From NCBI GenBank assembly GCA_943789425.1, contig CALSUB010000002.1, positions 124,001 through 188,000 on the forward strand: 64,000 nucleotides of DNA. Reading direction: 5' to 3'. Below, in pieces: positions 1 to 64,000 of this stretch; the stretch's first letter is position 1; every line of letters starts with the position of its first letter. Origin of the DNA: an uncultured Luminiphilus sp. (lineage in GTDB: Bacteria > Pseudomonadota > Gammaproteobacteria > Pseudomonadales > Halieaceae). Position numbers and translations under genes: made by a program. The notes below the pieces were generated by a model, which did no database searches, was not told where the DNA came from, and saw nothing but the letters and a program-made list of their open reading frames with translations.

Positions 1-61
1 TCGGAGGCGGCCGCAGTGCCGGTAGCGCAGCAGGATGGGCTAGCAGCCAGCGTCTCCTCGG

Positions 62-1027
62 TTGCTAGCGGATGATCGCGAAGCGGTGCTGCCTGCCAAG
101 TCTGCAGAGCCCGGCATGTTTGAGCGGTTACGAGCGGGGCTAGGCCGCAGTCGTAGCCAACTATCAGAGGGCCTGGCCAGTCTGGTTTTGGGGAAAAAGC
201 AGCTTGATCCGGCTTTGATGGAGGAGATTGAAGAGCAGTTGATTATGGCGGATCTGGGCCTTGAGACATCAGCGCGCGTTCTTGAGCTTTTGCGTCAGCG
301 TCTTGATCGGAAGTCGCTGTCCGCCACGGAAACGGTCATGTCCGCATTAAAAGCGACCCTCGTGGAATTGCTGATGGATCAGGAACAGCCCCTGACAACA
401 GAGGGCCATCGTCCTTTTGTGATTCTGGTTGTGGGGGTCAACGGCGCGGGGAAAACAACAACCATTGGCAAGCTGGCCCATCGATATCAGCAGGAAGGCC
501 GCAGTGTCATGCTGGCTGCGGGTGATACTTTTCGGGCCGCAGCGGTTGAGCAGCTCGAGGCCTGGGGTCAGCGACATGATGTTCCCGTGGTTGCGCAGCA
601 CACGGGTGCCGATAGTGCATCGGTGCTCTACGATGCACTGCAAGCGGCGACTGCAAGAGGGGTTGATATTTTGATTGCGGATACGGCGGGCCGCTTACAG
701 AATAAATCCCATCTTATGGATGAGTTGGCAAAAGTGGTCAGGGTCATGCGTAAGCAAAATCCTGCGGTGCCACACGAAACACTCTTGGTGTTGGATGCGG
801 GAACGGGTCAGAACGCGGTTTCGCAGGCGCTAGAATTCGACCAGACCGTTGGTATTACGGGGGTTGCCGTGACAAAGCTGGATGGCACTGCCAGAGGTGG
901 GGTGCTGTTTGCGATCGCGAACAAACTGAAGCGTCCGATTCGTTTCATTGGTATCGGCGAGAAAGCGGAGGATTTGCGGGACTTTTCGGCTCAAGATTTC
1001 GTTGATGGATTGCTAGATGATCAGTAG
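62..1027 (+). CDS. ftsY: Signal recognition particle receptor FtsY (N-terminus interrupted or incomplete)
   Basis: SRP-receptor GTPase that docks ribosome-SRP complexes at the inner membrane for co-translational insertion. The NG domain is complete: helical N domain from about residue 19 (MFERLRAGLG), P-loop GVNGAGKTTT near residue 125, DTFRAAA, DTAGR, and TKLDGTARGG near residue 270. The open frame can only begin at TTG 62 because of a stop at 41-43. Frame 1, from the window edge to the TGA at 73-75, encodes an Ala/Val/Ser-rich stretch (SEAAAVPVAQQDG...) that resembles an FtsY acidic A domain. Removing one base near 70 joins the two frames (SSVAS-DDREAVLPAK). The gene therefore probably starts left of the window and carries a one-base frame break; alternatively frame 1 is the tail of an upstream gene. 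It heads the ftsY-ftsE-ftsX-rpoH block. Confidence 0.9.
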   Translation: MLADDREAVLPAKSAEPGMFERLRAGLGRSRSQLSEGLASLVLGKKQLDPALMEEIEEQLIMADLGLETSARVLELLRQRLDRKSLSATETVMSALKATLVELLMDQEQPLTTEGHRPFVILVVGVNGAGKTTTIGKLAHRYQQEGRSVMLAAGDTFRAAAVEQLEAWGQRHDVPVVAQHTGADSASVLYDALQAATARGVDILIADTAGRLQNKSHLMDELAKVVRVMRKQNPAVPHETLLVLDAGTGQNAVSQALEFDQTVGITGVAVTKLDGTARGGVLFAIANKLKRPIRFIGIGEKAEDLRDFSAQDFVDGLLDDQ

Positions 1028-1033
1028 CGGGCA

Positions 1034-1702
1034 GTGCTGATGATTGAATTCGACCGCGTCAGCCGTCGGTTTGGGCAACAAGACGCACTGCGCAATCTGA
1101 ATTTACAGATCGATGACGGTGAAATGGCGCTGCTAACCGGCCACTCTGGGGCGGGTAAAAGCACGTTATTGCGCCTTTTGTTGTTGCTGGATAGACCCAC
1201 CGGCGGTCAGATTCTCGTCGATGGGCAATCTACCAAGCAGGTTCAGGGGAATGCGGTTGGGCATTATCGGCGTCGGTTCGGCGTGGTATTTCAAGAGCAT
1301 CGACTACTCTTCGACCGCAACGTTCGTGACAATATTGCCTTACCTCTTGAAATTGCTGGATTTTCTCTCCATGACACGAACCGGAGAGTGCGGGCGGCCC
1401 TAGACAAGGTGGGGCTGTTAGCAAAGGAGCGAGCGGACCCAAATGGGCTCTCCGGCGGGGAGCAACAGCGGGTAGCGATTGCGCGCGCGGTCGTGGCGCG
1501 ACCAGAGTTTTTGATTGCAGATGAGCCCACAGGGAACCTCGATCCAGCGCTCTCTGTAGAAATCATGACGCTGTTTGAAGCCTTTAACCAAGTAGGGGTC
1601 ACCGTGTTGGTGGCGACGCATGACCTGTCATTGATTGCGCGATCGCGCCATCGGTTGATGACGCTTGCAGCGGGGCAATTGATGCAGGCCGGGGTAGCGT
1701 GA
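1034..1702 (+). CDS. ftsE: Cell division ABC transporter ATP-binding protein FtsE
   Basis: ATPase of the FtsEX complex, which couples the cytoplasmic divisome to periplasmic peptidoglycan amidase activation. The ABC motifs are in order: Walker A GHSGAGKST (residues 36-44), Q-loop VVFQEH, signature LSGGEQQRVAIARA, Walker B LIADEPTGNLDP, and switch His in VATHDLS. Length (222 aa) is normal for the family. Start is GTG 1034 or the in-frame ATG 1040; similarity to other FtsE proteins (MIEFDRVS) favours ATG 1040. It lies 6 nt after ftsY and overlaps ftsX by 4 nt, so it is co-transcribed and probably translationally coupled. Confidence 0.96.
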   Translation: MLMIEFDRVSRRFGQQDALRNLNLQIDDGEMALLTGHSGAGKSTLLRLLLLLDRPTGGQILVDGQSTKQVQGNAVGHYRRRFGVVFQEHRLLFDRNVRDNIALPLEIAGFSLHDTNRRVRAALDKVGLLAKERADPNGLSGGEQQRVAIARAVVARPEFLIADEPTGNLDPALSVEIMTLFEAFNQVGVTVLVATHDLSLIARSRHRLMTLAAGQLMQAGVA

Positions 1703-2670: not shown

Positions 2671-2680
2671 TTTTTTGGGT

Positions 2681-2710: not shown

Positions 2711-2739
2711 ACGGCCCCAAGCCTACAGGAGGCCAGGAA

Positions 2740-3615: not shown

Positions 3616-3638
3616 GTTTTTCAGTTAGTTCACTTCTC

Positions 3639-6107: not shown

Positions 6108-6110
6108 AGA

Positions 6111-6590: not shown

Positions 6591-7129
6591 TTTCCAAGCC
6601 ATTTTTGTGCGGCGCCAGCAACCGTTGCCCGCTCTATAATATCGATACGCAAATCTGAACACAGTGCTTCAAAATCCTTGACCGTACAAAAGTGAATGTT
6701 AGGGGTGTCATACCAGCTCCGAGGCATTGCCTTAGAGACAGGCATGTGACCCGTTAACCCGAGGTGGGTTCGACAGCGCCAGTGCCCAAAATTAGGAAAA
6801 GAGACGATCGCTTCTTCACCAATATGTACCATACGTTCTAAGGCAAGGTGCGGATGCGTCAGCTCTTGCAACGCGTGGGTGAGTATCACCACATCAAAAC
6901 GGTAACGAGTAAAGCAGTTTAGGCCTTCGTTGATGTCTTCCTGAATGACGTCGAGACCTTTGCTTACCGCTGAAACGAGGTTGTCAGGATCGATATCAAC
7001 TCCGACGCCGACAGCGCCACGCTCTTCGCAAAGGCGTTTTAAAAACGCGCCATCACCGCACCCCAAGTCAAGTACTTTGCTACCCCGTGGAACCCAACCT
7101 AACACCGTATTAAGATCGAGACGATTCAT
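6530..7129 (-). CDS. metW: Methionine biosynthesis protein MetW
   Basis: Class I SAM-methyltransferase-like protein that partners MetX in O-acylhomoserine synthesis. Visible: VLDLGCGDGAFLKRL (motif I), DINEGLNCF, DVVILTHALQELTHP, SFPNFGHWRCR and GHMPVSKAMP, all characteristic of MetW. 199 aa. Start is ATG 7129, overlapping the metX stop by 4 nt (ATGA); the longer open frame to 7153 lies inside metX. The metX-metW overlap indicates coupled translation. Confidence 0.94.
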   Translation of the reverse strand: MNRLDLNTVLGWVPRGSKVLDLGCGDGAFLKRLCEERGAVGVGVDIDPDNLVSAVSKGLDVIQEDINEGLNCFTRYRFDVVILTHALQELTHPHLALERMVHIGEEAIVSFPNFGHWRCRTHLGLTGHMPVSKAMPRSWYDTPNIHFCTVKDFEALCSDLRIDIIERATVAGAAQKWLGKWWPNLFASSAVYRIRRSAR

Positions 7130-8274: not shown

Positions 8275-8868
8275 TCACAGTCCAACGACCAAGTTAGGCG
8301 GAAGTGACAGCGCTACTGCCGCATGTCGCAAGCCTATTTGCACGATGTTGATGGTGACAAAAAGCAAAATTGGTGAAAAGTCGATACCCCCCATATTGGG
8401 CAGCAACGCGCGAAAAGGAGTCATAATGGGGTCAGCAATTTGTCCGATCAGCTCGATGGCAGGATGCCGACTGCCGGCCGCTACCCAGCTGACGATGATC
8501 ATGGCAATGAGCACAAAAAAGGTCAGGTTGGTGAGTAACCCGAGTACACCAATAATGCCCCATCCCGCCAATATGAGCGGGTTAGGCACACTCCACTGCT
8601 CCCCTAGCACCCAGGTGATGCCCAGCAAAATTAAGATCTGAATGAGGACGGCCATCACTAAGACAGCCCAATCGATGCGTCCCCTCGCCGGAAGCATACC
8701 GCGCAGCGGCGCGAGAAACGGGTTGGTGATTTTGACAATGACTTGAGAAATGGGATTGTAAAAATTGGCTCGCGACGCGTGCAGCATGCCGCGTAACACG
8801 ATCAAAGTGAGTACCAAAGCCCCAAGATTTTGTATCAGATAAAGCGCCATTTCAGTTCCCGCGGTCAT
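8275..8868 (-). CDS. YggT family membrane protein
   Basis: Integral membrane protein with two tandem YggT repeats: hydrophobic segments around LIQNLGALVLTLIVLRGML and IDWAVLVMAVLIQILILLG, then LTNLTFFVLIAMIIVSWV, and a C-terminal helix. Each repeat carries the N-P-[IF]-x-P-[LF]R-x-LP motif (NPFLAPLRGMLPARGRIDWA and DPIMTPFRALLPNMGGIDFS). Role not firmly established; homologues are linked to osmotic or ion tolerance. Start is taken at ATG 8868, just after the proC stop; ATG 8850 is an alternative. Placement between proC and metX is conserved in relatives. Confidence 0.9.
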   Translation of the reverse strand: MTAGTEMALYLIQNLGALVLTLIVLRGMLHASRANFYNPISQVIVKITNPFLAPLRGMLPARGRIDWAVLVMAVLIQILILLGITWVLGEQWSVPNPLILAGWGIIGVLGLLTNLTFFVLIAMIIVSWVAAGSRHPAIELIGQIADPIMTPFRALLPNMGGIDFSPILLFVTINIVQIGLRHAAVALSLPPNLVVGL

Positions 8869-8869
8869 A

Positions 8870-9685
8870 TCAACCAAACTCCTCGCCCAGCGTTCTCGCT
8901 CGTTCAGCACAAGCCTGAACGGCATGAGTGATTATCTCGTCGAATTGATGGGACTGTAAGGCTAATAGTGCCTGTTCAGTCGTGCCACCCGGGCTCGTGA
9001 CATTTTCCCGCAGCGTTGAGATGGGCAGTTCAGAGCGCCCAGCGAGCTCAGCCGCACCGATAGCGGTTTGTAGGGTTAGCGCTACCGCGGTCTGTTGATC
9101 TAGCCCTAGATCAACGCCAGCCGCAATGATGGACTCTATGAGCGCAAAGAAATAAGCCGGTCCACTGCCAGAGACGGCGGTCACGGCATCAAGCAGTGCT
9201 TCTGAGGGCACCCACATCGTCATACCGACTGCGTTAGTCACTTGCTCAGCTAAGGCGCGATGTGCGTCGCTGGCTTGTGCTGTTGCGAACAGCCCACTGG
9301 CCCCCTTGCCTATCATGGCAGGCGTGTTCGGCATGCACCGGATAACCGGAACGGTGGGATCGACAGCAGCCTGTAGGGAGGCAATTGGAATGCCTGCTGC
9401 AATCGACAGAATGGCGGTATTGGGGCCAATCTGGTCTCGTATCGCCGCCAAGGCTTCAGGGGCGACCTGTGGTTTGACCGCCACTACCACCAGATCCGCA
9501 TCGATAAAAATGTGCTGAGGCGAGGTGTTGAGTTGCGACAGACCGAGTGATTGGAGCCGCGATAATGCAGCTTCGCTAGGGTCGCTAGCGCGCAATTGTG
9601 ACGGCGAGAAACCACTGGCCAACAGGCCATTGATCATGGCGGTGGCCATATTGCCCGCGCCTAGGAATGCGATTTGAGGCGACAT
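8870..9685 (-). CDS. proC: Pyrroline-5-carboxylate reductase ProC
   Basis: Last step of proline synthesis: reduces pyrroline-5-carboxylate with NAD(P)H. Rossmann motif FLGAGNMATAMINGLLASG at the N-terminus, VVAVKPQVAPE near residue 70, RCMPNTPAMIGKG near residue 117, and the conserved substrate/dimer region AVSGSGPAYFFALIES followed by LRENVTSPGGTTEQAL. 271 aa, normal length. Ends 2 nt before the yggT start. Confidence 0.96.
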   Translation of the reverse strand: MSPQIAFLGAGNMATAMINGLLASGFSPSQLRASDPSEAALSRLQSLGLSQLNTSPQHIFIDADLVVVAVKPQVAPEALAAIRDQIGPNTAILSIAAGIPIASLQAAVDPTVPVIRCMPNTPAMIGKGASGLFATAQASDAHRALAEQVTNAVGMTMWVPSEALLDAVTAVSGSGPAYFFALIESIIAAGVDLGLDQQTAVALTLQTAIGAAELAGRSELPISTLRENVTSPGGTTEQALLALQSHQFDEIITHAVQACAERARTLGEEFG

Positions 9686-9714
9686 AAGATCAGGAGTATC
9701 CGTGAAGAACGACT

Positions 9715-10437
9715 TTAATTATACCGTGCGCCAAAAATATCTGTGCCGACTCTGACCAGGTTCGATCCTTCGGCAATAGCGGCCTCTAAATCGCTGGACA
9801 TTCCCATCGATAATATCGCCAATTCTGGATTGCCGCCGATAAGGCTTTGTTGAATGGTGCGCAAATGACGAAAAGGCACTCGCTGGGCAGCGGGTTCAGC
9901 ACTGGACGCTGGAATGGTCATTAGTCCTTTTAATTGCAGGTTAGGTAGCGTCTCTACAGCATCAATCAGCGTTTTGAGTGCGTCAGACTGTACCCCAGAT
10001 TTACTCGCTTCATCCGATGTTTTGACTTGAAGGAGTACTTTTAACGGCCCTTTTTCGGAGGGACGTTGATCACTAAGGCGTTGCGCTATTTTGAGCCGAT
10101 CTACGCTATGCACCCAGTCACTAAACTCGGCAATCAGCCGCGTTTTATTGCTTTGAATCGGCCCAATAAAGTGCCACGTCAAGCCTAAGTCAGCTAGTTG
10201 GGCGGCTTTTTCGGCCATTTCTTGGGCGTAGTTTTCACCAAAATCAGACAGCCCCGCCTGGTGCGCCCAGCGGATGAGTTCAGTTGATTTTTTTTTGCTG
10301 ACTGCCAATAGAGAGACCGCCCCGGGTGGCCTGTCTGCAGCGCACTCTGCCGCGCGAATACGTCGGTTGATTTCTGATATATTGAGACGCAAGTCTGTCG
10401 GTGTCATGTCTGCATCATAAGGAAATTGATGCGCCAT
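9715..10437 (-). CDS. yggS: PLP homeostasis protein YggS (PLPBP)
   Basis: Non-catalytic pyridoxal-phosphate-binding protein of the YggS/PROSC family, involved in vitamin B6 and amino-acid homeostasis. Visible: LLAVSKKKSTELIRWA (PLP lysine), DFGENYAQE, WHFIGPIQSNKT, GLMTIP, and the phosphate-binding C-terminal LSMGMSSDLEAAIAEGSNLVRVGTDIFG. 240 aa from 10437; ATG 10407 (MTPTDLRLN) is an equally plausible start and neither has a strong ribosome-binding site. Divergent from pilT with a 31-nt gap. Confidence 0.93.
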   Translation of the reverse strand: MAHQFPYDADMTPTDLRLNISEINRRIRAAECAADRPPGAVSLLAVSKKKSTELIRWAHQAGLSDFGENYAQEMAEKAAQLADLGLTWHFIGPIQSNKTRLIAEFSDWVHSVDRLKIAQRLSDQRPSEKGPLKVLLQVKTSDEASKSGVQSDALKTLIDAVETLPNLQLKGLMTIPASSAEPAAQRVPFRHLRTIQQSLIGGNPELAILSMGMSSDLEAAIAEGSNLVRVGTDIFGARYN

Positions 10438-10468: not shown

Positions 10469-11509
10469 ATGGATATCACAGAATTACTCGCATTTGGCGT
10501 TCAACAAGGTGCTTCGGATCTGCATCTTTCAGCAGGGCTTCCGCCCATGATCCGGGTAGACGGTGACATTAGGCGGGTCAACTTACCCCCGCAAACCCCG
10601 ACCGAAGTCCAAGCCTTAATTTACGACATTATGAATGATCGTCAGCGGAACGAATTTGAGGAGCGTCTCGAAACGGACTTTTCTTTTGAGCTCCCCGATG
10701 TGGCGCGCTTTCGTGTCAACGCTTTTGTCCATAATCGCGGCGCGGGTGCGGTATTTCGCACGATCCCGTCCGAAGTCTTGTCGATGGAGGCGTTGGAAAT
10801 GGGACAAACATTCCGCGATATCTCAATGCTACCAAGAGGGTTAGTCTTGGTGACTGGTCCGACAGGTTCTGGAAAATCCACGACGCTTGCAGCCATGATC
10901 GACTACGTCAATGCAAACCGCTACGACCACATTCTTACGATTGAGGACCCGATTGAGTTTGTTCATGAAAGCAAACGCTCCCTGATTAATCAGCGCGAAG
11001 TGCATCGCGATACGTTAGGTTTTTCTGCGGCACTGCGTTCTGCTTTACGTGAAGATCCCGACATCATTTTGGTGGGCGAACTGCGAGATCTAGAGACAAT
11101 CCGGCTGGCGCTGACTGCCGCTGAAACCGGTCATTTGGTTTTTGGCACGTTGCATACCACCTCAGCTGCAAAGACAATTGATCGTGTTGTCGATGTCTTC
11201 CCTGGAGAAGAAAAAGCCATGGTGCGCTCGATGTTGTCAGAATCTTTGCAAGCTGTGATCTCTCAAACTCTGCTCAAGCGCAGTCAAGGCGGGCGTATTG
11301 CGGCACACGAGATTATGCGCGGTACTGCGGCGATCCGAAATTTAATCCGGGAAGATAAAGTGGCTCAAATGTATTCCGCGATCCAAACGGGGCAATCCAC
11401 GGGGATGCAAACGATGGATCAATGTTTGCAAGGACTGGTTCAAAAAAGACTGATTACCGCCGAAGTCGCGCGTGAAAAGGCACGTCAGCCAGAGGGCATC
11501 ATTGGCTGA
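10469..11509 (+). CDS. pilT: Type IV pilus retraction ATPase PilT
   Basis: Hexameric ATPase driving pilus retraction and twitching motility. Visible: N-terminal DLHLSAGLPPMIRVDGD, Walker A GPTGSGKSTT near residue 132, Asp box LTIEDPIEF, Walker B ILVGELRDLETIRLAL, His box TGHLVFGTLHTTSA, and the retraction-specific AIRNLIRE segment. 346 aa, normal. Good ribosome-binding site GGAG 8 nt before ATG. The last 25 nt overlap the 3' end of ruvX on the other strand. No pilU follows. Confidence 0.95.
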   Translation: MDITELLAFGVQQGASDLHLSAGLPPMIRVDGDIRRVNLPPQTPTEVQALIYDIMNDRQRNEFEERLETDFSFELPDVARFRVNAFVHNRGAGAVFRTIPSEVLSMEALEMGQTFRDISMLPRGLVLVTGPTGSGKSTTLAAMIDYVNANRYDHILTIEDPIEFVHESKRSLINQREVHRDTLGFSAALRSALREDPDIILVGELRDLETIRLALTAAETGHLVFGTLHTTSAAKTIDRVVDVFPGEEKAMVRSMLSESLQAVISQTLLKRSQGGRIAAHEIMRGTAAIRNLIREDKVAQMYSAIQTGQSTGMQTMDQCLQGLVQKRLITAEVAREKARQPEGIIG

Positions 11510-15717: not shown

Positions 15718-17109
15718 TTAATACTTATACGAGTCACCTTTAAAGGGGCCATTTACTCCGACACCAATATAGTCTGCCTGCTTTGTCGTCAGCTGCGTCA
15801 TGACCCCGCCGAAGCCTTGTACCATCAAAGCGGCGACTTGCTCATCAAGGTGCTTTGGCAATACCTCTACGGCGATGGCGTCTTGGCGTGCGTCCTCTGG
15901 CAGGTCGGCAAATTTCTTTTCATAGAGGTGAATTTGCGCTAACACCTGATTCGCGAAAGAGCCGTCCATGATGCGTGAGGGATGCCCGGTGGCATTGCCG
16001 AGGTTGACCAGCCTCCCCTCTGACAAGAGCAAAAGGTGATCGTTGCTGGCGCTGTCGCGGATAATCTTATGGACTTGGGGCTTGATCTCCTCCCACTGCC
16101 ACTCTGCGCGCATGTAGGCGGTATCAATTTCATTGTCAAAGTGACCGATGTTGCACACCACTGCTGTTGATTTCAGGGCGCGCAACATGGGCGCAGTGCA
16201 GACGTTGTAGTTGCCAGTGGCAGTGACCAATAGATCAGTGGTGCCGAGTAAATCGGCATTGACGCTGCCGTCCGTGCCGTCATCGACACCGCCGTTAAAG
16301 GGCGACACCACTTCAAAACCATCCATGCAGGCTTGCATCGCGCAAATGGGATCGCATTCAGTGACTCGCACAATCATCCCTTCTTGTCGAAGTGATTGAG
16401 CCGATCCTTTGCCGACGTCACCATACCCAATCACGAGGGCGCGCTTGCCCGCTAGTAAATGATCAAGGCCACGTTTGATGGCATCGTTGAGGCTATGACG
16501 GCAGCCATACTTGTTGTCATTCTTCGATTTCGTCACCGCGTCGTTGACATTCACTGCGGGCACTTTCAGTTCGCCATTGGCCAGCATTTCATAGAGACGG
16601 TGCACGCCTGTTGTGGTTTCTTCAGTAACACCATGAATGCGTGCCAACATGTCAGGATATTGCTCGTGCAGCATCCCAGTGAGGTCGCCACCATCATCCA
16701 GCACCATATTCGCATCCCACGGTTTACCGTCTGCAAGGATGGTTTGCTCGATACACCACTCATACTCCTCTTCCGTTTCTCCTTTCCAGGCAAAAACTGG
16801 GATTCCTGCAGCAGCAATTGCGGCGGCTGCATGATCTTGGGTAGAGAAAATATTACAGGATGACCAGCGAACCTCTGCGCCGAGCGCGACCAGCGTCTCA
16901 ATGAGCACGCCCGTCTGAATCGTCATGTGAATGCAGCCCAAGATCTTAGCGCCCGCCAGTGGCTGCGCATCGCGATAATGCTCCCTCAGTGCTATCAGCG
17001 CGGGCATCTCGTTCTCCGCGATTTCCAATTCGCGTCGACCCCAATCGGCCAAATGAATGTCCGCGACCTTATAGTCAGCAAATACAGTTTGCTCAACAGC
17101 AGTGTTCAT
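15718..17109 (-). CDS. ahcY: Adenosylhomocysteinase AhcY (SahH)
   Basis: NAD-dependent hydrolysis of S-adenosylhomocysteine to homocysteine and adenosine, removing the inhibitory product of methyltransferases. Visible: [20 protein letters not shown] at the N-terminus, [41 protein letters not shown] fold [26 protein letters not shown], and the C-terminal ending in SYKY. 463 aa from ATG 17109; the open frame continues to 17217 but overlaps metK. Lies 31 nt after metK, in an operon with the frame-broken metK and the SahR-type regulator. Confidence 0.95.
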
Positions 17110-17140
17110 AGCATCGTCTCTCTTTTGATCGATTGATTGT

Positions 17141-18314
17141 TTATCGTTCTGAAGCCGCACGAAGTGCTTCAGCGTGGTCAGTGTGTTCCCAAGTGAAGGC
17201 GTCACCTGTGCGGCCAAAATGTCCGTAAGCGGCAGTGGTACGATAGATGGGGCGTTTTAGATTCAGCATATTAATAAGGCCTTTGGGTCGCAGATCAAAG
17301 TGCTCGCGGATCAGCGACTCGATCGCGTCGTCTGCCACAGCGCCGGTGCCAAAGGTGTTGACCGAGATAGAGGTGGGCTCTGCCACGCCAATCGCATAAG
17401 AAACCTGCACTTCACAACGACGAGCAAGGCCCGCCGCGACGATATTTTTTGCCACATAACGACCTGCGTAAGCGGCGGAGCGATCCACCTTAGAGGGGTC
17501 CTTACCTGAGAAGGCACCGCCACCATGCCGAGCCATGCCCCCATAAGTGTCGACAATGATCTTCCGTCCGGTTAGCCCGCAGTCTCCTTGTGGGCCGCCG
17601 ATCACAAAATTACCGGTTGGGTTGATGTGAAACAGCGTATCGCTGTGCAACCACTCCGCGGGCAAGGTCGATTCAATGATCTCCTTGCGAACTGCTTCGC
17701 GAAGATCAGCCTGTGAGATGTGGGGGTCGTGCTGCGTTGAGAGGACCACGGCCTCTACACGTTCGGGTTTGCCGTCTGCTGAATATCGCATCGTAATTTG
17801 GCTTTTTGCGTCGGGGCGCAGCCAAGGTAGGGCCCCTGATTTACGAAGTTCAGCTTGTTTCTCAACCAGTCGATGCGCGTAGTGGATGGGCGCCGGCATC
17901 AGTACCTCGGTCTCGTCCGAGGCAAACCCGAACATCAACCCTTGGTCGCCCGCCCCTTGACTGGCTTCATCTGCCTCATGGGTGCCTAGGGCGATATCCG
18001 CCGACTGTTGTCCAATCGCATTAATGACCGCGCAGGTATTGCCATCGAAGCACACCTCTTGAGGAGTCAAAGCCAATATCGAGAACCGTTTGCCGAATCA
18101 CCGCCTCAAGTTCGCCGGGGGTGACATTGGCCGCGGTGGTGACTTCGCCCGCGACGACGACCATGCCGGTCTTCACCAGGGTCTCTACCGCAACGCGTGC
18201 GTCGGGATCTTTGCTGAGGTAGGCGTCCAGAATGGCATCGGAAATTTGGTCCGCCATCTTATCTGGGTGTCCCTCTGAGACCGACTCAGACGTAAAGAGA
18301 GAGTACTCACTCAT
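17141..18314 (-). pseudogene. metK: S-adenosylmethionine synthetase MetK, split by a one-base frameshift
   Basis: ATP plus methionine to SAM. The N-terminal part (18314 to about 18060; [28 protein letters not shown]) ends in GFDSS and then drifts out of frame. The rest ([51 protein letters not shown]) is in the +1 frame and runs to 17141. Removing one A of the AA pair at 18059-18060 (read on the minus strand) restores [16 protein letters not shown], the expected family sequence, and a 390-aa protein of normal length. All catalytic motifs are intact. MetK is normally essential and no second copy is visible here, so a sequencing indel is more likely than a true pseudogene. Confidence 0.93.
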
Positions 18315-18337
18315 AATGTGTGTTCCTAACGTTGGGT

Positions 18338-19327
18338 TTAGTGTCGGATAAAGTGTTGGATCTGTATTTGAAAGCCGTTTCGTTGACCGAAGAAGAGTTC
18401 TGCGCTGCGTTCTAGGCCTGCTTCAGCGGCCCAGGTATAAAGTGCATCCGGATCGAGTCCTAACCATAAGTCTCCGCAATGTTCGCGCGCCCATGCCTGA
18501 TCGTGTGGGCAGAGTTCGCTCACAATGAGATGCCCCCCTGAGGCTAGTAGCTGAGCGACCTCAGCGATGAGCCTTTTTGGATCAGGTACATGGTGCAGCA
18601 CCATGTTCACGACTGCCGCCGAGAAAGTGCCTGCATGATCTGCCAACGAGGCGGGTTCACCAAAATAAAATTGAACATTGCCTAAGGTGCCGGCGTTTTT
18701 TTTCGCTCTATCGAGCATTTCTTGGGCATTATCGAGTGCGACAATAGCCGCTCCTCGTTTTGACAGCGCGGGCAGCAAGCGCCCGTCACCGGGGCCGACT
18801 TCAAGGATTTTGTTGCCGCTAAAGTCTCCCGCCCTGTCGAGCAGATGCAGCGTTGCGCGGCTATAGTCCTCCCAGGATGCGATGGATTCCTGATGACGTT
18901 TAAATTGTTCGCCATGCTCGCGGAAAAAAGTCGCTGAGTGCTCCTCGCGCTGGCACTGCACTCTTTGCAGTCCCAGCACTAGGTCATGCCTAAGGGGTTC
19001 CCGATCGATGTCGTCGAACATGGTTTGCCGCAAACTGGTGTGCTGACCTTCCGGTAATTGTCGACGATAAAAAGTAGCAGTCCCTTCTGGCCGTCGGCTT
19101 AATAGGTTCGCTTCCACCAGAATTTTGAGGTGGTGGCTCAATGCGCTTTGGCGCATCGAAAATAAATCGCACAGTTCCGAGACGCTAAATGACTCCGCTT
19201 TTAGCACCCTCAAGATACCCATTCTCAACGGGTGCCCAGCAGCGCTGAACAGCGCGTGAAGCGATTGTTCTGAGCGTTGGGTCCGATGGGGTTGGTTGAT
19301 CGGAACGACTGTTAAGGGGGCGACCAT
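18338..19327 (-). CDS. ArsR-family HTH regulator fused to a SAM-methyltransferase-like domain (SahR type)
   Basis: 329 aa with two domains. Residues 20-95 are an ArsR winged helix ([18 protein letters not shown], then [23 protein letters not shown] as the recognition helix). Residues from about 165 form a class I methyltransferase fold ([16 protein letters not shown] motif [25 protein letters not shown]). This fusion beside metK-ahcY matches the SahR group, repressors of methionine-cycle genes that sense S-adenosylhomocysteine. The methyltransferase-like domain probably serves as the ligand sensor. First gene of the sahR-metK-ahcY operon, 23 nt before metK. Identification rests on domains and context. 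Confidence 0.85.
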
Positions 19328-20148: not shown

Positions 20149-20548
20149 GGTAGTTTGAGCCGTTACGGATGACCTTTGCGACAGACTTCCGTGTCGGATT
20201 ATCTAGTGAAAAGGCACTCGGAGTGGTTGATGCGCTCAGTGAAGCGAAAACCGATGGCGCGCACAGCTTTGATTCTACTCGCTTTAATGGGTCTCTCGCA
20301 GACATAAGGGCCAATTTATGTTGGTGTCTCCCCTTTCGCGATACTTGATCCGTTGGAGCCATTAGCGGCAGTCACGCCTTAAGGCGGCTTACCCATACTG
20401 TACCCCTCTAATAGGTTCGATGGCACGCGGGTTGCAGCGCCCGGATATCGGCGAGAGACGCTGGCTTTTGATGCCAGTTGATTAGCGATATTTGCCCATA
20501 GGGCCGGCATCGCGACAATACGGCTCGCCCTGTGATCCCGGAGTTTTC
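20149..20548. other. 400-nt intergenic region between rpiA and tkt
   Basis: No recognised gene. It probably carries the promoter and leader of the tkt-epd-pgk-fba operon. Seen in it: a possible 59-codon frame from ATG 20169 to TGA 20348 on the plus strand, with no good ribosome-binding site and no recognisable family, and a small hairpin CTGGC-N7-GCCAG near 20461-20477. No riboswitch class was recognised. Confidence 0.5.
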
Positions 20549-29694: not shown

Positions 29695-30994
29695 GTTTAC
29701 GCGTCGTCGTAAAAAACTGATGTCTATGATGGACAAGAACAGTATTGCAATCATCCCTGGTGCGAGGGAGGTCACTCGGAGCCGAGATACCGAATATCCG
29801 TTTCGGCAGAATAGCGATCTCTTTTATTTGACGGGATTCGAGGAGCCTGACGCGGTGTTAGTCCTCCTACCCGGTCGCCGGCAGGGTCAGGTGATCTTGT
29901 TTTGTCGAGAGCGCGACCCCGATATGGAGCTTTGGAATGGTTATCGACTGGGCCCGGAGGGGGCGATAGCGTATCTGGGGCTCGATGATGCTTTCCCCAT
30001 TGATGATCTCGATGAAATTCTTCCCGGTCTCATTGAGGGAACGAATCGGATCTACTATTCGATGGGCCACGATGACCATTTTGATCAGCGGGTGATGGGT
30101 TGGGTAAATCAGATCCGACGCCTTGCGCGGAGCGGCGCGGCGCCTCCTGCCGACTTCACTGATTTGGCCTTTCTGCTGCATGAGCAGCGCTTGATCAAGT
30201 CCGCTGCTGAACTGCGCGTTATGCGCAAAGCAGGTGAGATCAGCGCTGAAGCGCATATTCGTGCCATGCGCGAGTGTCGTGCGGGACGATATGAATATCA
30301 CCTTGAGGCGTCTATTCAGCATACTTTTGCAGAGCATGGCGCACGCTTTCCTGCTTATAACTCCATTGTGGGTTCAGGCGTTAATGCCTGCGTACTGCAT
30401 TACACGGAAAACAACGCGCGCCTGCGCGGCGGTGATTTGGTGTTGATTGACGCCGGCTGCGAATACGAGGGTTATGCGGCTGACATCACCCGGACCTTTC
30501 CGGTCAATGGTTGTTTTTCCCCAGAGCAACGTGCCCTCTATGACGTCGTGTTGGCGGCGCAGCACGCTGCGATTGCCAAGGTCAAACCCGGCAACACGTG
30601 GAATCAGCCCCACGATGCCACCGTACGGGTGATTACCCGGGGACTCATTAAGCTGGGTTTGCTGAAAGGTCAGGAGCGCGATTTGATTAAATCAGAGGCT
30701 TATCGCGACTTTTATATGCATCGAGCCGGCCATTGGCTGGGTCTGGATGTTCACGACGTGGGGGACTACCGCGTGGGTGGACGCTGGCGGCAGCTAGAAG
30801 CGGGCATGGTCATGACCATTGAGCCCGGTATTTACGTCGCCCCCGATAACACCCGCGTTGCCAAGCGGTGGCGTGGCATCGGGGTGCGAATAGAGGATGA
30901 TGTGGCGGTGACTGAAACAGGGTGCGACGTATTGACCGGAGATGTTCCGACGAATGCCGATGAGATTGAAGCGCTGATGTCAGGGACGCCATGA
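29675..30994 (+). CDS. pepP: Xaa-Pro aminopeptidase PepP
   Basis: Metallo-aminopeptidase II removing N-terminal residues before proline. Visible: N-terminal TEYPFRQNSDLFYLTGFEEPDAVLVLLPG, then the pita-bread catalytic domain with metal ligands in VLIDAGCEYEGYAADITRTFP, GHWLGLDVHDVG, MTIEPGIYVAP and RIEDDVAVTETG. 439 aa, normal. TTG 29675 matches the homologues' N-terminus. Overlaps ygfB by 20 nt and ubiH by 4 nt, so the three are one transcript. Confidence 0.95.
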   Translation: MKITKAEFTRRRKKLMSMMDKNSIAIIPGAREVTRSRDTEYPFRQNSDLFYLTGFEEPDAVLVLLPGRRQGQVILFCRERDPDMELWNGYRLGPEGAIAYLGLDDAFPIDDLDEILPGLIEGTNRIYYSMGHDDHFDQRVMGWVNQIRRLARSGAAPPADFTDLAFLLHEQRLIKSAAELRVMRKAGEISAEAHIRAMRECRAGRYEYHLEASIQHTFAEHGARFPAYNSIVGSGVNACVLHYTENNARLRGGDLVLIDAGCEYEGYAADITRTFPVNGCFSPEQRALYDVVLAAQHAAIAKVKPGNTWNQPHDATVRVITRGLIKLGLLKGQERDLIKSEAYRDFYMHRAGHWLGLDVHDVGDYRVGGRWRQLEAGMVMTIEPGIYVAPDNTRVAKRWRGIGVRIEDDVAVTETGCDVLTGDVPTNADEIEALMSGTP

Positions 30995-32191
30995 CCTCTC
31001 ATTCGCAGGTAATGATTCTGGGTGGGGGGCTAGCGGGGCTCTCGTTCGCCATCGCTATCGCCTGTGAGAATCCTGATTCAGACATTGTGTTGTTGGAGGC
31101 CAGTGCCTTTCGATCGGGGTCACCTAATCCACTCGATACGCGGGGCTCTGCACTCAATTTACACTCTGTGTCACTGCTGGAATCTTGGGGTATATGGTCA
31201 GGTCTGCGTTCCGCCGCTGGTGCGATACGCGATATCCATGTGTCTCATCGTGGTCATTTTGGTAGCACGGTGATGACGGCCGCCGAACTTGATGTCCCCG
31301 CCTTGGGCTATGTCGTGGAGAACCATGAGCTCGGTCAGCAGTTGCTGGCTCGTGCCACGCAGTTGGGCATTACCATTCGATCCCCGGTGCGGTGCAGCGG
31401 GCTTCGGACCGACGCAGGCACACCCGCGATTGAAACAGAAGAAGGTGAAGTGATCACCGCTGACCTCGTCTTAGTGGCTTCCGGCGTTGCGCCCGATTGG
31501 TTTGCTCAGTTGGGTATCAGCGTCTTGGAGCGACCGACCCCTAATACCGCATTGGTATTTAATGCAAGCTTCCCGGGACAGCAAAGCGGTCGTGCTTTTG
31601 AGCGCTTTACCGAAAATGGGCCATTAGCAGTGTTGCCGTTGCAGACGCTGAGTCATGCCGATCAGCGCTATAACGTGGTGTGGTCGGTGTCCAATAGCAC
31701 AGCAACGACGCTTGGCGATCTGGACGACGAGGCGTTTCGCAACCACTTTCAGGATGCATTTGGTTGGCGGTTAGGGCGTGTTCAGGCCGTGGGGCGGCGC
31801 AGCCAGTGGCCATTGACGCGGTTATCTGCCTCGGAGCAGTTCCGCACGGGCTTTCTCTTAGTGGGCAATGCAGCGCATACGCTGCACCCTGTCGCGGGCC
31901 AAGGGTTAAATCTCTCCTTGCGAGAGGCCGGCTTGTTGGCACAAGCAATCGCCGACGCACAGCAGCGTTCAGCAGCCATCGGCTGCTTAGCGAGTTTAAA
32001 AACTTATCTCGATCAAGTGTCCGATGAGCAGCGCCTTGTCGTCGACAGCACCGATGCGTTGGCCACTCCTCTTCAATCGCCGAGGACCGCTACTGGATGT
32101 TCCTCGAGACGCATCACTTGCCTTGCTAGATTTACTGCCAGCAGTCCGGCAACAAGTTGCCAGTGTTGGAACAGGCCGGCGCTATGCCTGA
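30991..32191 (+). pseudogene. ubiH: Ubiquinone biosynthesis hydroxylase UbiH, split by a one-base frameshift near the 3' end
   Basis: FAD monooxygenase of the UbiH/UbiF/Coq6 family, acting in ring hydroxylation during ubiquinone synthesis. Visible: VMILGGGLAGLSFAIAIA (FAD), DTRGSALNLHSVSLLESWG, and GNAAHTLHPVAGQGLNLSLREAG. The frame drifts after ...VDSTDALAT near residue 359. Dropping one base of CC at 32068-32069 continues as LFNRRGPLLDVPRDASLALL to TGA 32189-32191, the expected UbiH tail, giving 399 aa. The uncorrected frame runs to 32223 with a nonsense tail. It overlaps the next gene's ATG 32184. Confidence 0.9.
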
Positions 32192-33391
32192 TCGCAACAA
32201 TGAACGCAGCGCGGATGTGCTAATTGTTGGCGCTGGCATTGCCGGGCTGTCCTTAGCGATTGCTTTGAGCAAAAGTGATTTTCATGTCGTGGTGATTGAT
32301 GGCGCTGATTGTCCCAAGTCAGTCAACGAGGGCGTTGCATTAAATGATTGGGATCTTAGAGTCAGTGCATTGACACCCACGTCTATTCGTTTTCTCGAGT
32401 CACTCGGCGTGTGGCAGAGAATTCCCAGCGAGCGAACTGCTCCCTACCAGGCCATGTGTGTTTGGGATGCTGACGGCACTGGCCGAATCACCTTTAACGC
32501 AGAGGATGTCGCCGCACCTTGCCTCGGACACATTGTTGAGAACCGACAAACGGTGCAGGCCTTAATAGAGTGCGCCGAGGCTTGCAGTGGCGTGGAGCTC
32601 CGCTGGCAAAGTGCACTGGAGTCCCTGTCTCGCACACCGGAGGGTTGGTCTATCGATTGTGCCGGAGATCAACGCCTCTCTGCGCAACTTGTTGTCGCGG
32701 CTGACGGTGCCCGCTCAAAGGTGCGTCAGCTGACAGCGCAGCCCACTCGGGATTGGGATTATCATCAGAGCGCGATTGTTGGCACGGTTGCGCTATCGTC
32801 GCCGCATCAAGCAACATGCTGGCAAGCTTTCCTAAGTACTGGTCCATTAGCGCTACTGCCATTGCCCGATCCTTCTAAAGTAGCGCTGGTTTGGTCGCTA
32901 GATGCGCAGGAGCATGCGGAGGTTGCGGCGCTGTCGGATACCGCTTTTATTGCGGCTTTAAATCAGGCCTTGGGTCCATTAGCGCCTCATGCCGAGGCGG
33001 TGGGAACTCGCGTGAGTTTTCCACTCAAACAAAGTCACGCGATCGATTACGTGGACGACGCCTTAGTATTGGTCGCTGATGCGGCACACAGCATTCATCC
33101 ATTGGCCGGACAAGGCATCAACCTTGGGCTGTCCGATGTGCGCATTTTGGCGCAAGAACTATTAGCGGGTTGTGCCGGTGGTCCTCCCGGTTTCGAGCCC
33201 CGTATCCTCTAAAACGGTACCAACGCCAGCGTAAGTCGGAAAATCTCGCCATGATGGCGGCGATGGAGGGTTTTAAGCGCGGCTTTGGTAGCCCTCATCC
33301 CGCCGCAGTGATACTGCGGAATATCGGTCTGAATATGGTTGAGCGTCAGCACTGGCTGAAGCGGTGGTTTATGCGGCAAGCGATTAGCTGA
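32184..33391 (+). pseudogene. visC: UbiH/UbiI/VisC-family FAD hydroxylase, split by a one-base deletion near the 3' end
   Basis: Second FAD monooxygenase of the ubiquinone hydroxylase family (VisC/UbiI type), probably hydroxylating another ring position. Visible: VLIVGAGIAGLSLAIALS, LRVSALTPTSIRFLESLGVW, VAADGARSKVRQL, and VLVADAAHSIHPLAGQGINLGL. The frame stops at TAA 33210-33212 after about 338 residues, while the adjacent frame carries the missing C-terminus KRYQRQRKSENLAMMAAMEG...WFMRQAIS to 33391. One missing base between about 33180 and 33209 accounts for this; restored length is 402 aa. ATG 32184 overlaps the ubiH stop. Confidence 0.87.
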
Positions 33392-40679: not shown

Positions 40680-42105
40680 ATGCGTTCTCAATTTCTGAAA
40701 GTATCTGCTCTGGCGCTGGCAAGCGCGCTATTCACGCCCTTCACGCTTGGCCAAGATGCCGAGGCCGAAGTCGAGGCACCACCACCTCCCACTCCGCAAG
40801 AAGTTGCTGCCGAGAACCTTGATCAGCTGCTCGAGTTAGTAGAGCGAGGACAAGCGCGAGCGTCAGCCGAAAATCAAGCGCGCGAACAGCGATTCTCTAC
40901 TGATAAGGCCAACCAAGCCAAGGCGTTAAAGCGCGCTGAAGATGAGCGGCTGCGGGAAGAGCGTCGCTCTGCGCGCTTGGAGAAAAAGTTTGAAGAAAAT
41001 GAGCTGCTGATTGCCGCTAAGCAAGAGCAGCTGAAAGAGCGATTGGGCACTTTGTCCGAGTTGTTTGGCCATTTGACGGCCGCTTCTGGCGATTTAGCAT
41101 CGAACGTTGAGGTGTCTTTGGTCAGCTCTGAGTACCCCGGACGCGAAGGCTTTTTAAAGGGGTTGATCGCCAAGATGTCAGGGTCAGATCAACTGCCGCG
41201 TATCGATGAGATCGAGAAAGTGTGGTTCGAGCTGTTGCGGGAGATCCGTGAGCAGGGCGAGATCAGCCGTTACACCGCGAAGGTCGCGACACCGTCTGGT
41301 GAGCTGAGCGAGCGAGAGGTTGTTCGAGTTGGTGCGTTCAATATTATCGATACAGAGGGCAATTACCTCTCCTTTAACATTGATCAGTTATCCGAGTTGC
41401 CCCGGCAGCCCGGTGGCGGCTTCAACGGGCAGGCGCAGGACCTAGCCTCCGCGCAATCTGGGTTATCGCAGTTTGGTATTGATCCCACTGGGCCTACCGG
41501 CGGCTCTTTCTTGGCGGCGATTATTGACAGTCCCACTATCTCTGAGCGGTGGCACCAAGGCGGATACGTCGGTTATGCCATTACGGCAGTGGGCACCTTT
41601 GCCTTCATTCTGGCCATTTTCCGACTGATCGTTCTCACTTCTGTGGGCGGCAAAGTGTCGTCTCAACTCAAGTCGACGTCGGCGCGTGCCGATAATCCTC
41701 TTGGGACGGGTCTTAAAGGTCCACGAAGACAATCCCAATATGGATCCCGAGACACTTGAGTTGAAAATGGCCGAGGCGGTACTGAGTGAAACGCCGAAGC
41801 TGGAGCAAGGTCTCACATTACTGAAAATTATTGCCGCAGTAGCGCCCCTGATGGGACTGCTGGGTACCGTGACCGGCATGATCATTACGTTCCAGGCGAT
41901 CACGATTTTTGGCGCGGGCGATCCCAAGGCGATGGCCGGTGGTATCTCTTCAGCACTGGTCACCACGGTTCTGGGGCTGTTGGTAGCAATACCCACAGTA
42001 TTGCTCCACACAGTGGTCAATGGGCGCTCGCAGCGCATCATTCATGTGCTGAACGAGCAAGCCACGGGCATTGTGGCGGAGCATTCCGAGCGCGCGCACA
42101 ACTGA
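40680..42105 (+). pseudogene. Large MotA/TolQ/ExbB proton-channel protein (TtpC type), split by a one-base frameshift
   Basis: Accessory ExbB-like protein of TonB2-type systems: signal peptide (SALALASALFTPFTLGQ), a long charged coiled coil (residues about 50-125), a membrane helix (YAITAVGTFAFILAIFRLIVL), then the MotA/TolQ/ExbB domain (LLKIIAAVAPLMGLLGTVTGMI, AMAGGISSALVTTVLGLLVAIP). The first frame ends at 41759 in nonsense; the domain continues in the +1 frame to 42105. Dropping one base of GGGA at 41703-41706 restores ADNPLGRVLKVHEDNPNM and a 474-aa protein. No gene symbol is asserted. Confidence 0.9.
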
Positions 42106-54177: not shown

Positions 54178-54269
54178 GGCCTTTCAGGTCTATTTACCGA
54201 TGAATGGGAGTTCCTATCCATTACGGCTTGGCTTACAGTCCCGCCTACGAAAATACACGATCAAAAGCG

Positions 54270-55443
54270 ATGACTATGTCGACATTAAGAATACACTCAA
54301 TCCTCTTTCTCGGCTTGCTCTCTGGCCTGTTTCATTTGTCGGTTTGGGCATCCGATGACACTGTCGTGTCGGCAGCGGAGTCGCCACCGGCTCGGATTGT
54401 CCTGATGGACCAATCCGTGATTTGGGGAGAGGTCATCGATATCCGCGAGGGCGAAGTCGTTGTAGAAACCCAATGGCTCGGCGAGGTATCGATTGACCTG
54501 ACGGCCATCATGTTGCTCGAGTCCGATCAAGAAATAGAACTGCTCACAAAAGATCAAAATAAATTTGCTTTGTCGTCATTACAGGTCGTAGAGGGCGTAG
54601 TGGTGCTGGAGGATAAAGAGAATCTAGCCGTTGATGAGTTATATGTTGCCAATCCCGAGGATTGGGAGGAGGGGCGCGGATATAGTTTAGAAGGTCGAGT
54701 GACCAGTGCAGTGGAGTTTCTTCGCGGTAATACGTCGACCGACCAGTTCAACGCCGATTTCGAAACCATCTTACGTAGCCAACGCGATCGAATTACTTTT
54801 CGCGGTGATTATGCGGAAACCAGCGCCGTTGTGCTGTCACCTGAATATGATGCTTTGGGCGAGCCGGTGCTGGATGACAATGGCGATCAGGCGGTGACCA
54901 AAACCTCGACCCCAACGATTGATAATTGGGCGATTGTCGGTAAGTACGATTATTTTCTCAGTAATTCGCAAAATTATCTGGGTGTGAATCTTGGCGTCAA
55001 TGCCGATCGATTTGCCGACATTGAGCGACGTGCTTATATCGGTCCCTACTTTGGGCGCAAACTGTTTGTCGACAAGACCTACCAGTTGGATGCGGAACTG
55101 GGCTTGTCTTATGTTGAGACCGATTTTATCGAGCGCGACTACGACGACGATCCGGTAGCTGCGAACTCTCCAGATAACTACTTTACGGGTATCAATCTCA
55201 ATTTTACGGGTGAGACGGAACTCTTTGATGGGGCACTCAACTTGTACTCTACGTCAGACCAATATTTTAAATGTGTCCGACATGGACAAATCGATATATC
55301 GGACAACATTTGGTTTGCGATTCCCCTTGTTACTTGGGCTCGAGGTGGCCGCGGAAGCGTCGGCAGATTACGATGGTGGTGCTGCTCCGGGTAAGGAAAA
55401 GTTAGATGAGGCGGTGAGGTTTCGTATTGGCTATAACTGGTAA
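54270..55443 (+). pseudogene. DUF481 outer-membrane protein, split by a one-base frameshift
   Basis: Predicted outer-membrane beta-barrel of the DUF481 family (salt-induced outer membrane protein YdiY type). Signal peptide (LFLGLLSGLFHLSVWAS), an N-terminal domain with RIVLMDQSVIWGEVIDIREGEVVVETQWLGEV, then beta strands (RDRITFRGDYAETS, WAIVGKYDYFLSNSQNYLGVNL). The frame breaks after TSDQYF near residue 333; removing one A of AAA at 55269-55271 restores NVSDMDKSIYRTTFGLRFPL...FRIGYNW to 55443, 390 aa with a typical barrel C-terminus ending in W. The uncorrected frame stops at 55394. Confidence 0.85.
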
Positions 55444-55491
55444 GTTTTGGTCAGATGTAACGTGATTCCATGAGTCAGTCTCCGCAGTCAG

Positions 55492-56835
55492 ATGTTGTGT
55501 TTCTCCCCTCTCGGCGGATGTGGGGAAATCGGCATGAATTTCAATTTGTTTGGGCACCAAGGGCATTGGTTGGCGGTTGACTGTGGCATCACCTTGGAGC
55601 AGATCCCCGGTGCGGTGCGGCCCGCTGTTCAAATGCCCGACCCACGTTTTATCGTCGATCACCGAGACCAACTCAGTGGCTTATTGATTACGCATGCGCA
55701 TGAAGATCATTTGGGTGCGTTACCGTATTTATGGGAACAACTGCGCTGTCCGGTTTATGCGACGCCATTTGCCGCCGCGGCACTGCGGCACAAAACCCAG
55801 GGGCGCCGCGGGGTCCTGCCGGCGCCGCTGATTGAGGTGACGCCGGGGGATCGATCACTCATTGGGCCTTTTTCTGTGGAGTGGATTCCCGTGACACATT
55901 CCACGCCAGAGACCTGTGCACTGTGTATCAGTGTTGGCCAGACGCGCATCCTGCATACAGCGGACTGGAAAATCGACGCCGCACCGGTTGTTGGTCCCGC
56001 CTGGTCTGATAAACGCTTCGAGGCGCTGGGTGTTGAGGGTGTCGATGCGGTTATCTGCGATTCAACGAATGCCTTACAAGCGGGACGCTCCGTCACGGAG
56101 GGTCGTGTTGCGCAAGGTCTCACTGAGGTGATTCAGCGCTGTGAGGGTCGGGTTGTCGTGGGGTGTTTTTCTAGCAACATCGCGAGAATTCAAACGCTGT
56201 CACAGATTGCAGCCGATACCGGACGATACCTAAGTGTCTTGGGTCGATCGGCGGCGGGGATGGCAAACTGTGCACAGCAAGTGGGGTTGTTTCCGAGTCA
56301 GTTCAAACCGATTCACGCGGAGCACCTCGGATATTTGCCGCCTCGCGAAGTATTGGCCATTGCGACCGGCAGCCAAGGAGAGTCGGGTGCCGCTCTGCAT
56401 CGACTGGTGGCACAGACACACCCTCATTTGTCCTTAGATGCGGGTGATACGGTGATTTTATCTTCCAGGACGATTCCGGGGAATGAAGCCTCCGTTGCGC
56501 GACTGATTGAAGGATTCCGGGCGAGAGGTATTTATGTGCTCGAGGCCGATTCCAGTGATACCCCGCTGCATGCATCGGGCCACCCTTATCAGGATGAGTT
56601 GCGCGACCTGTATCAGCTTTTAAAGCCGTCACTCGTGGTCCCGGTGCACGGTGAGGCGGCACATATGGCCGCCAATGCGCGAATCGCTAAACAATCTGGC
56701 GCTTCGGCTGCGCTGACCGGCGTGAACGGCGATCTTTTTTACCTGAGTCCCGTACCCGGCGTCAGGCGACGTTACGCGCCGGTGGGTCGGTTGCAGTGGT
56801 GCGAAGACACTGAGCGCTTGATCAACGTCTCTTGA
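55492..56835 (+). CDS. RNase J-like metallo-beta-lactamase/beta-CASP nuclease
   Basis: 447 aa in the intact frame. Visible: LGGCGEIGMNFNLFGH, metal motif THAHEDHLGALPYL (HxHxDH), VTHSTPETCAL, the CASP region (CFSSNIARIQTL, GRSAAGMANCAQQVG, IATGSQGESGAALHRL), and VVPVHGEAAHMAAN. Matches bacterial RNase J without the C-terminal domain. The likely true start is ATG 55470: its frame encodes MSQSPQSDVVFLP, and removing the T at 55509 joins it to LGGCGEIGMN, giving 454 aa. RNase J is unusual in gammaproteobacteria, which mostly rely on RNase E; a different MBL nuclease role is possible. Confidence 0.85.
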   Translation: MLCFSPLGGCGEIGMNFNLFGHQGHWLAVDCGITLEQIPGAVRPAVQMPDPRFIVDHRDQLSGLLITHAHEDHLGALPYLWEQLRCPVYATPFAAAALRHKTQGRRGVLPAPLIEVTPGDRSLIGPFSVEWIPVTHSTPETCALCISVGQTRILHTADWKIDAAPVVGPAWSDKRFEALGVEGVDAVICDSTNALQAGRSVTEGRVAQGLTEVIQRCEGRVVVGCFSSNIARIQTLSQIAADTGRYLSVLGRSAAGMANCAQQVGLFPSQFKPIHAEHLGYLPPREVLAIATGSQGESGAALHRLVAQTHPHLSLDAGDTVILSSRTIPGNEASVARLIEGFRARGIYVLEADSSDTPLHASGHPYQDELRDLYQLLKPSLVVPVHGEAAHMAANARIAKQSGASAALTGVNGDLFYLSPVPGVRRRYAPVGRLQWCEDTERLINVS

Positions 56836-61657: not shown

Positions 61658-61663
61658 AAATCA

Positions 61664-62746: not shown

Positions 62747-62843
62747 TGATCCTGCATTACTTCAAGCAGAAGTGTGCGCGTCAGCGCCCGCGCTGTCTAC
62801 TCATGCTCTCCCCATAGGGTTACAGACAAGGACAGTCCTCCAA

Positions 62844-62859
62844 TGTGATACTGATCACC
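62844..62859. promoter_or_regulatory. CRP/Vfr-like site upstream of the aminotransferase gene
   Basis: TGTGA-TACTGA-TCACC: matches the CRP/Vfr consensus TGTGA-N6-TCACA at 9 of 10 defining positions. It lies in the divergent gap between the MBL hydrolase and aminotransferase genes, 82 nt before the latter. Recognised by eye; suggests carbon-dependent control. Confidence 0.5.
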
Positions 62860-62940
62860 AATCAGCCTGGTAGAGCGGCCCGGTGAATGGACCGCTCAAT
62901 GGCGGGCCAAGTTTTTAGGACTGAATCTGGAGCATCTTCG

Positions 62941-64000
62941 ATGTCAGCAAAGCTCGATACGAAAGCGCTTAAGCAATTAGACCAAGCGCACCACCTGCAT
63001 CCCTTCACTGATTTTGCCGATTACGCCCGCCATGGGGGGCGTATCGTGAGCCGGGCTGAACACATTTATATTTTCGATTCTGACGGCAATAAAATTCAGG
63101 ATGGTATGTCGGGGTTGTGGTGCTGCAACTTGGGATATTCTCAAGAGCGGATTAAAACCGCGGTTGCCGATCAGCTCGCTGAATTACCGTTTTATAATAA
63201 TTTTTTTAGATGCTCCAATCAGCCCGCTACGGAGTTGGCGGCGCGACTCTGCGAAGTAACGCCAGACCGTTTTCAACGCGTGTTTTTTACGAACTCGGGA
63301 TCGGAAGCCAACGACACTCAAATTAAATTTGTCCATCGGTATTTCGATCTGTTGGGTAAGCCGGAAAAAAAGCTCATTATCAGCCGCCACAATGCCTATC
63401 ACGGCAGCACCATTGGCGCGTCTTCGCTGGGCGGCATGTCTGCGATGCATCAGCAGACGATGGGCCTCGACTATATCCATCACATACAGCAGCCGCATTG
63501 GTTTGAGGAGGGCGCTGACCTTGATCCTGAAGAGTTTGGTGTTCTCGCGGCAAAAGCATTAGAGACCGCGATTGATGAGCTCGGAGAGGATAAGGTTGCC
63601 GCCTTTATCGCAGAACCTGTTCAAGGAGCCGGTGGCGTGATTGTGCCGCCGGAATCTTATTGGCCAGAGGTAAAACGCATTTTAGATGAGCGAGACATAT
63701 TGCTGATTTCAGACGAGGTAATCTGTGGTTTCGGGCGGACTGGCCGTTGGTTTGGATTTGAAACCTATGGGGTAGAGCCGGATCTCGTGACCTTCGCGAA
63801 AGCGGTCACTAACGGGTACATGCCGCTTGGAGGCTGCCTCATCAGCGACAAGATTGCTGACGTGTTGTTGTCAGGCGGCGGTGAATTCGCTCACGGATTG
63901 ACGTATTCCGGGCATCCCGCGTCTTGCGCCGCGGGATTGGCGACCCTAGATATTCTTGAGGATACGCAAATTATTGAGCGGGGTGTGGTTGAGCTGGCAC
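62941..64000 (+). CDS. Class III aminotransferase (putrescine/omega-amine:pyruvate type), truncated by the window end
   Basis: 353 codons before the window ends. PLP class III aminotransferase: HHLHPFTDFADYARHGG at the N-terminus, FDSDGNKIQDGMSGLWCCNLGYS, FFTNSGSEANDTQIKFV, HNAYHGSTIGASSLGGM, AAFIAEPVQGAGGVIVPPESYWP, ISDEVICGFGRTGRWFGFETYG, and PLP lysine in LVTFAKAVTNGYMPLGGCLISD. Close in pattern to SpuC, the putrescine-pyruvate aminotransferase of Pseudomonas. Likely amine catabolism. ATG 62941. The gene continues beyond the window. Confidence 0.9.
   Translation, partial: MSAKLDTKALKQLDQAHHLHPFTDFADYARHGGRIVSRAEHIYIFDSDGNKIQDGMSGLWCCNLGYSQERIKTAVADQLAELPFYNNFFRCSNQPATELAARLCEVTPDRFQRVFFTNSGSEANDTQIKFVHRYFDLLGKPEKKLIISRHNAYHGSTIGASSLGGMSAMHQQTMGLDYIHHIQQPHWFEEGADLDPEEFGVLAAKALETAIDELGEDKVAAFIAEPVQGAGGVIVPPESYWPEVKRILDERDILLISDEVICGFGRTGRWFGFETYGVEPDLVTFAKAVTNGYMPLGGCLISDKIADVLLSGGGEFAHGLTYSGHPASCAAGLATLDILEDTQIIERGVVELA

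Follow-up and report, generated by a model that had tools for sequence, protein, structure and literature searches.

The window analysed here comprises 64,000 nucleotides (bases 124001 to 188000 of contig 2) of a Luminiphilus-like draft genome of the Halieaceae, G000, whose assembly totals 1.70 Mb in 18 contigs and is 79.6% complete. Seven of its core genes change reading frame part-way, among them metK and ftsY. Comparison with related genomes indicates that these breaks, although present in the sequence, are almost certainly absent from the organism. The genes concerned, and one further change, are as follows; positions are those of the window, and private changes are those seen in this genome and not in its relatives.

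1..1027 (gene starts before the window), plus strand: ftsY; the frame changes close to the N-terminus, between about 50 and 67
17141..18314, minus strand: metK (S-adenosylmethionine synthetase); frame change at about 18055-18060
30991..32188, plus strand: ubiH-type hydroxylase gene; frame change at about 32066, a private gain
32184..33391, plus strand: visC-like UbiH/UbiF hydroxylase gene; one-base gains, both private, at about 33182 and 33208
40680..42105, plus strand: large exbB (MotA/TolQ/ExbB family, PF01618); frame change at about 41695-41717
54204..55443, plus strand: DUF481 protein gene (PF04338); frame change at about 55248
55470..56835, plus strand: RNase J-like gene; frame change at about 55505
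20505..20520, plus strand: private one-base loss (about 20513), just upstream of the likely transketolase start; absent from relatives G004, G012 and G013

The window was compared with the syntenic DNA of six relatives (G012, G013, G004, G011, G015 and G006) and with eight stretches around metK from further genomes. Of 11 stretches of G000 that lie beside or beyond the window, five (L027, L028, L029, L031 and L034) were included. Those of the near relatives that have names are draft genomes and isolates of Luminiphilus and Halieaceae. The nearest, G012, is 94% and 96% identical over the first 30 kb, 93 to 96% in longer pieces, and 91% around metK. Gene breaks were located by searching all frames of the window with intact G004 proteins by using tblastn; G004, as the source of the queries, is therefore intact in all seven genes by construction.

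In these searches, ftsY, metK, ubiH, the visC-like gene, exbB and the DUF481 gene each appear as two collinear pieces in different frames, and the RNase J-like gene has a displaced N-terminus. The list of seven genes in the original prediction, made from the letters of the window, was thus right. Identity is high on either side of the breaks (for example, 96% and 100% in exbB), which bears out the statement that conserved sequence flanks them. G012 carries a single open frame in all seven genes, so the breaks are private to G000; the proposed comparison with independent assemblies of relatives therefore came out as an error in the sequence would lead one to expect.

The two pieces of ftsY overlap: residues 1-49 of G004 FtsY match window positions -80..66, and residues 43-370 match 50..1024 in another frame. 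A gain near 67 is private relative to G004 and G013, although it is not in our strict list of private indels. The gene matches TIGR00064 with 349 bits and is intact in G004, G013, G011, G015, G006 and G012, and no second ftsY was found in G000 above the cut-off.

For metK, whose start was set at 18314 from the ATG of the open reading frame (ORF) together with the alignment, residues 1-145 and 147-450 of an over-long G004 ORF lie in two frames, and the gain is private against G004, G012 and G013. The gene matches TIGR01034 (467 bits) and is present in one copy, with no second metK above the cut-off. Among 57 genus genomes searched, 49 gave a match. In 38 of them the frame stays open for no fewer than 386 amino acids; two of the 11 with a shorter frame, G000 and G061, were inspected. 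Thirteen of 14 other genomes viewed closely have an intact metK, and the remaining one, G061, is broken at other bases.

Residues 1-359 and 360-399 of the ubiH product are in two frames; the match in G013 (28% identity) is to a paralogue and was excluded. In the visC-like gene, the two one-base gains are 26 bases apart. The claim that changing one base restores each protein consequently fails for this gene. The exbB gene is divided into residues 2-368 and 363-496. Eighty exbB loci come from named genomes, and of the 71 that hold both halves, 70 are open across the site broken in the window; the exception, L087, is broken elsewhere (residues 202-220). In G011, exbB is also broken, but at residues 95-96. 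The DUF481 gene is divided into residues 1-349 and 350-413.

The RNase J-like gene was predicted to be broken near its N-terminus. The frame change is there, and the G004 match begins only at residue 11; it is, however, a weak case, because the displacement covers no more than about ten residues at the start, and an ATG in the long frame still gives an ORF of 447 amino acids. This protein exceeds the cut-offs of PF22505 and PF00753 and falls below those of the NCBIfam RNase J models. The loss near 20513, which was missing from the original list, was considered as the mark of an eighth broken gene, transketolase, and our script placed it inside an over-long ORF. This candidate was dropped, since the loss is upstream of the likely start as judged from where Tkt usually begins.

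Private indels were then counted across all regions compared. To be called private, an indel needed the agreement of two or more of the three remaining close genomes and no disagreement from any that covered the site. G000 has 27 in 108,726 bases (21 one-base gains, five one-base losses and one three-base loss), with a bias toward gains among the one-base indels (21 versus 5, p=0.0025). By the same definition, G012 has three in 92,220 bases (one of one base), G004 nine in 96,795 bases (seven of one base) and G013 two in 73,598 bases (both of one base). The one-base rate of G000 is thus 22 times that of G012 (p=1.5e-6), 3.3 times that of G004 (p=0.002) and 8.8 times that of G013 (p=1e-4). The private indels of G000 occur in the window and its neighbours (11), L029 (1), L031 (4) and L034 (11), and eight of the 27 are inside the window.

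Most of the sites had been said to lie in short homopolymers. Only two of the seven window gains listed fall in a run of two or more (metK, run of 2; RNase J-like gene, run of 4). Moreover, 12 of all 21 gains (57%) are isolated bases, against the 56% that random choice of base and position would give. Because runs are no commoner than chance, homopolymer slippage was ruled out as a common cause. The earlier conclusion in favour of indel error does not depend on this detail.

At the level of genes, G000 has 20 breaks in 104,783 coding bases (1.9 per 10 kb), one of which, L034 18620, falls in a trimmed margin and so shows a coverage count of 0. G011 has seven breaks in 45,186 coding bases (1.5 per 10 kb), one of them (C9 20507) doubtful. 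The four other drafts give 0-0.3 per 10 kb: G012, two in 79,285 coding bases; G004, none in 88,298; G013, none in 60,540; and G015, one in 36,563. G061 has four breaks in 16,846 coding bases, and G002 three in 6,359. The remaining samples are small (G006, 1/9,160; G057, 1/6,197; G060, 0/6,211; G030, 1/3,389; the isolates NOR5-1B, G066, 0/4,458, and HTCC2080, G016, 0/5,311; G053, 2/11,431). Calls near ORF starts were removed, because over-long ORFs yield false breaks there; this step also drops ftsY and the RNase J-like gene, so that the gene-level counts miss some true breaks. Seven calls at the starts of metK or ahcY (G015 25370, G011 20507, G006 56162, G057 9852, G030 10543, G002 10867 and G053 11014) are probably false but were kept in the counts.

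Beyond the window, breaks are concentrated in one stretch. Within 5.5 kb, positions 14500-20000 of L034 (G000 C8:10001-30000) account for 10 of the 20 gene-level breaks and for nine of the 26 indels of one base. The genes hit there are catabolic (aldehyde dehydrogenase, Rieske-type oxygenase, thiolase and acyl-CoA ligase), together with one for an unnamed protein. This is probably a poorly covered stretch, for which such clustering is expected. In L031 (G000 C4:20001-40000), hemH (ferrochelatase) is also split, by a private one-base gain in the gene body.

We consider the breaks to be one-base indel errors left uncorrected in the draft assembly, with a probability of about 0.95 on the sequence comparisons made here. 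This reading is favoured because the breaks are private, are nearly all of one base, are present outside the window and occur in each of the four regions of G000 that were compared. It is also favoured because the same pattern recurs in G011, whose name points to PacBio sequencing, and is rare in four other drafts, and because selection on the genes is not relaxed, no common motif is seen, and neither metK nor ftsY has a second copy. Most of the errors would be false one-base insertions that the consensus of this draft metagenome assembly retained; thinly covered long reads are the probable source, with low depth presumably the cause. The living organism most likely carries ftsY, metK, ubiH, the visC-like gene, exbB, the DUF481 gene and the RNase J-like gene intact. 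The breaks are then most likely an ordinary artefact and not a real biological feature.

The sequencing platforms bear on this explanation. The record of G011 reads "isolate PACB-20200310-m53". In a North Sea time series with long and short reads, as described in PMC10182627, a bin with a sister name, PACB-20200310-m34, comes from long-read data only, and PacBio Sequel II HiFi reads were used for the metagenomes. The record of G012 (NODE contigs, an ERR run and MetaBAT) we take as that of a short-read assembly, and G004, G013 and G015 are presumed to be short-read assemblies from their contig counts (290, 430 and 90). For G000 itself, the few contigs and the error pattern suggest a long-read assembly. 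The likeness to long-read indel error as treated in PMC10182627 is that conserved genes are split by one-base indels at several points of one assembly, and that such indels are rare in assemblies of kin. Homopolymers are stressed in what that literature says of such errors, whereas in G000 one-base gains outside homopolymers dominate; insertions without a tie to homopolymers are nonetheless reported in PMC12007338.

Several points weigh against indel error. Gains outside homopolymers would be more typical of raw or few-pass single-molecule reads than of good HiFi reads, and the seven breaks of G011, each seen by at least three sources, likewise lack a homopolymer bias. In the North Sea study, proteins predicted from assembled long reads came close to full length (median ratio 1, interquartile range 0.052), better than those from short reads, which implies that long-read assemblies are not error-ridden in general (PMC10182627). 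G004 itself has its seven one-base private indels, though none passes the gene-level test. Finally, as a raw count, all 26 one-base indels of G000 are in an ORF of a relative.

Breaks private to G000 could also arise from real decay, in which the lineage recently lost genes through frameshifts, and the assembly is small (1.70 Mb against about 2-3 Mb for most relatives), but it is also only 79.6% complete. Decay would have had to strike metK, ftsY and hemH; metK and ftsY are both required for growth, and neither has a second copy above the cut-off (hemH copies were not searched). The ratio of nonsynonymous to synonymous changes (pN/pS), measured against G004, is 0.112 for 18 broken genes, against 0.102 for 85 that are intact (Mann-Whitney p=0.43). 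Twenty-six of the 27 private indels are of one base, with no mixture of lesion kinds, and the sole in-frame stop called in the 104,783 coding bases (C2w 38425) precedes the start of metK by about 110 bases. Decay is consequently very improbable. The predominance of gains (21 of 26 one-base indels), with conserved frames on either side, might instead point to extra bases that are real and that the ribosome skips by programmed or general +1 frameshifting, and in the visC-like gene the old-frame stop (33210-33212) is two bases past the second gain. The known programmed shift of prfB, which has a stop codon at the frameshift site, resembles these genes in that two frames are joined by a +1 step. 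However, the old-frame stops of the four genes checked end at 18021 (metK, minus strand), 32223 (ubiH), 41759 (exbB) and 55394 (DUF481), 36 to 155 bases past the break and not at the step. No shared context, run or slippery sequence was seen when contexts and stops were inspected by eye, without a motif program, in agreement with the original prediction. The five losses alongside the 21 gains, the closely spaced pair of gains (26 bases apart) in the visC-like gene, and the lack of conservation of the breaks in the relatives tested, which carry single open frames, also argue against skipping, and we regard it as extremely improbable. Neither decay nor programmed frameshifting is supported.

An assembler that joined pieces of different strains could have left indels at the joins. 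The relatives come from metagenomes, and the metK of G061 looks mosaic. Such joining has only a negligible chance of being the explanation here, since the sites in the window lie in well-matching sequence with the same relative on either side, and one-base gains dominate. There is hardly any prospect that the extra bases are real in another manner, as in an indel-hypermutator lineage or one with a signal-free, base-skipping ribosome that tolerates +1 shifts in many genes. If indel error is the correct explanation, a survey of gene content in G000, at about two breaks per 10 kb in the sampled regions, would report false losses, for example, of metK, ftsY and ubiH. The breaks may also have depressed the completeness score of this genome.

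Other observations concern individual loci. The hemH sites in L031 are at 10278 and 9650; the second gain is at about residue 40 of an over-long ORF and may precede the true start. The breaks in G011 are near 10812, 11644 and 12341 of L019 and near 6830, 7562, 8530 and 9056 of L020. They are located opposite the transketolase, GAPDH, Pgk, thymidylate synthase, DHFR, DUF3450-like and exbB genes of the window, which, except for exbB, were named by position and by eye.

The metK of G061 (L149, C3:225001-245000, 8479-9817) contains two frame changes. It looks mosaic, with residues 1-151 65-74% identical to G004 and residues 153-450 99% identical. A metK hot spot common to several genomes was ruled out, because the breaks of G061 affect different bases and its sequence there is mosaic. 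G002 (record CALSMP, isolate S_MB80) has frame changes at 12671 and 13179 of L150 (C6:22001-42000), just after metK, relative to all 13 genomes compared; these are probably in ahcY. Bins with names in the style of S_MB80 come from a paper in which HiFi reads and Flye were used, according to PMC10108472, and from this name style we infer that G002 belongs to those data. At 15718-19327 of the window, ahcY and metK are grouped with an ArsR-methyltransferase fusion (all named by eye), and 28 of 29 genomes match this stretch, in part or whole.
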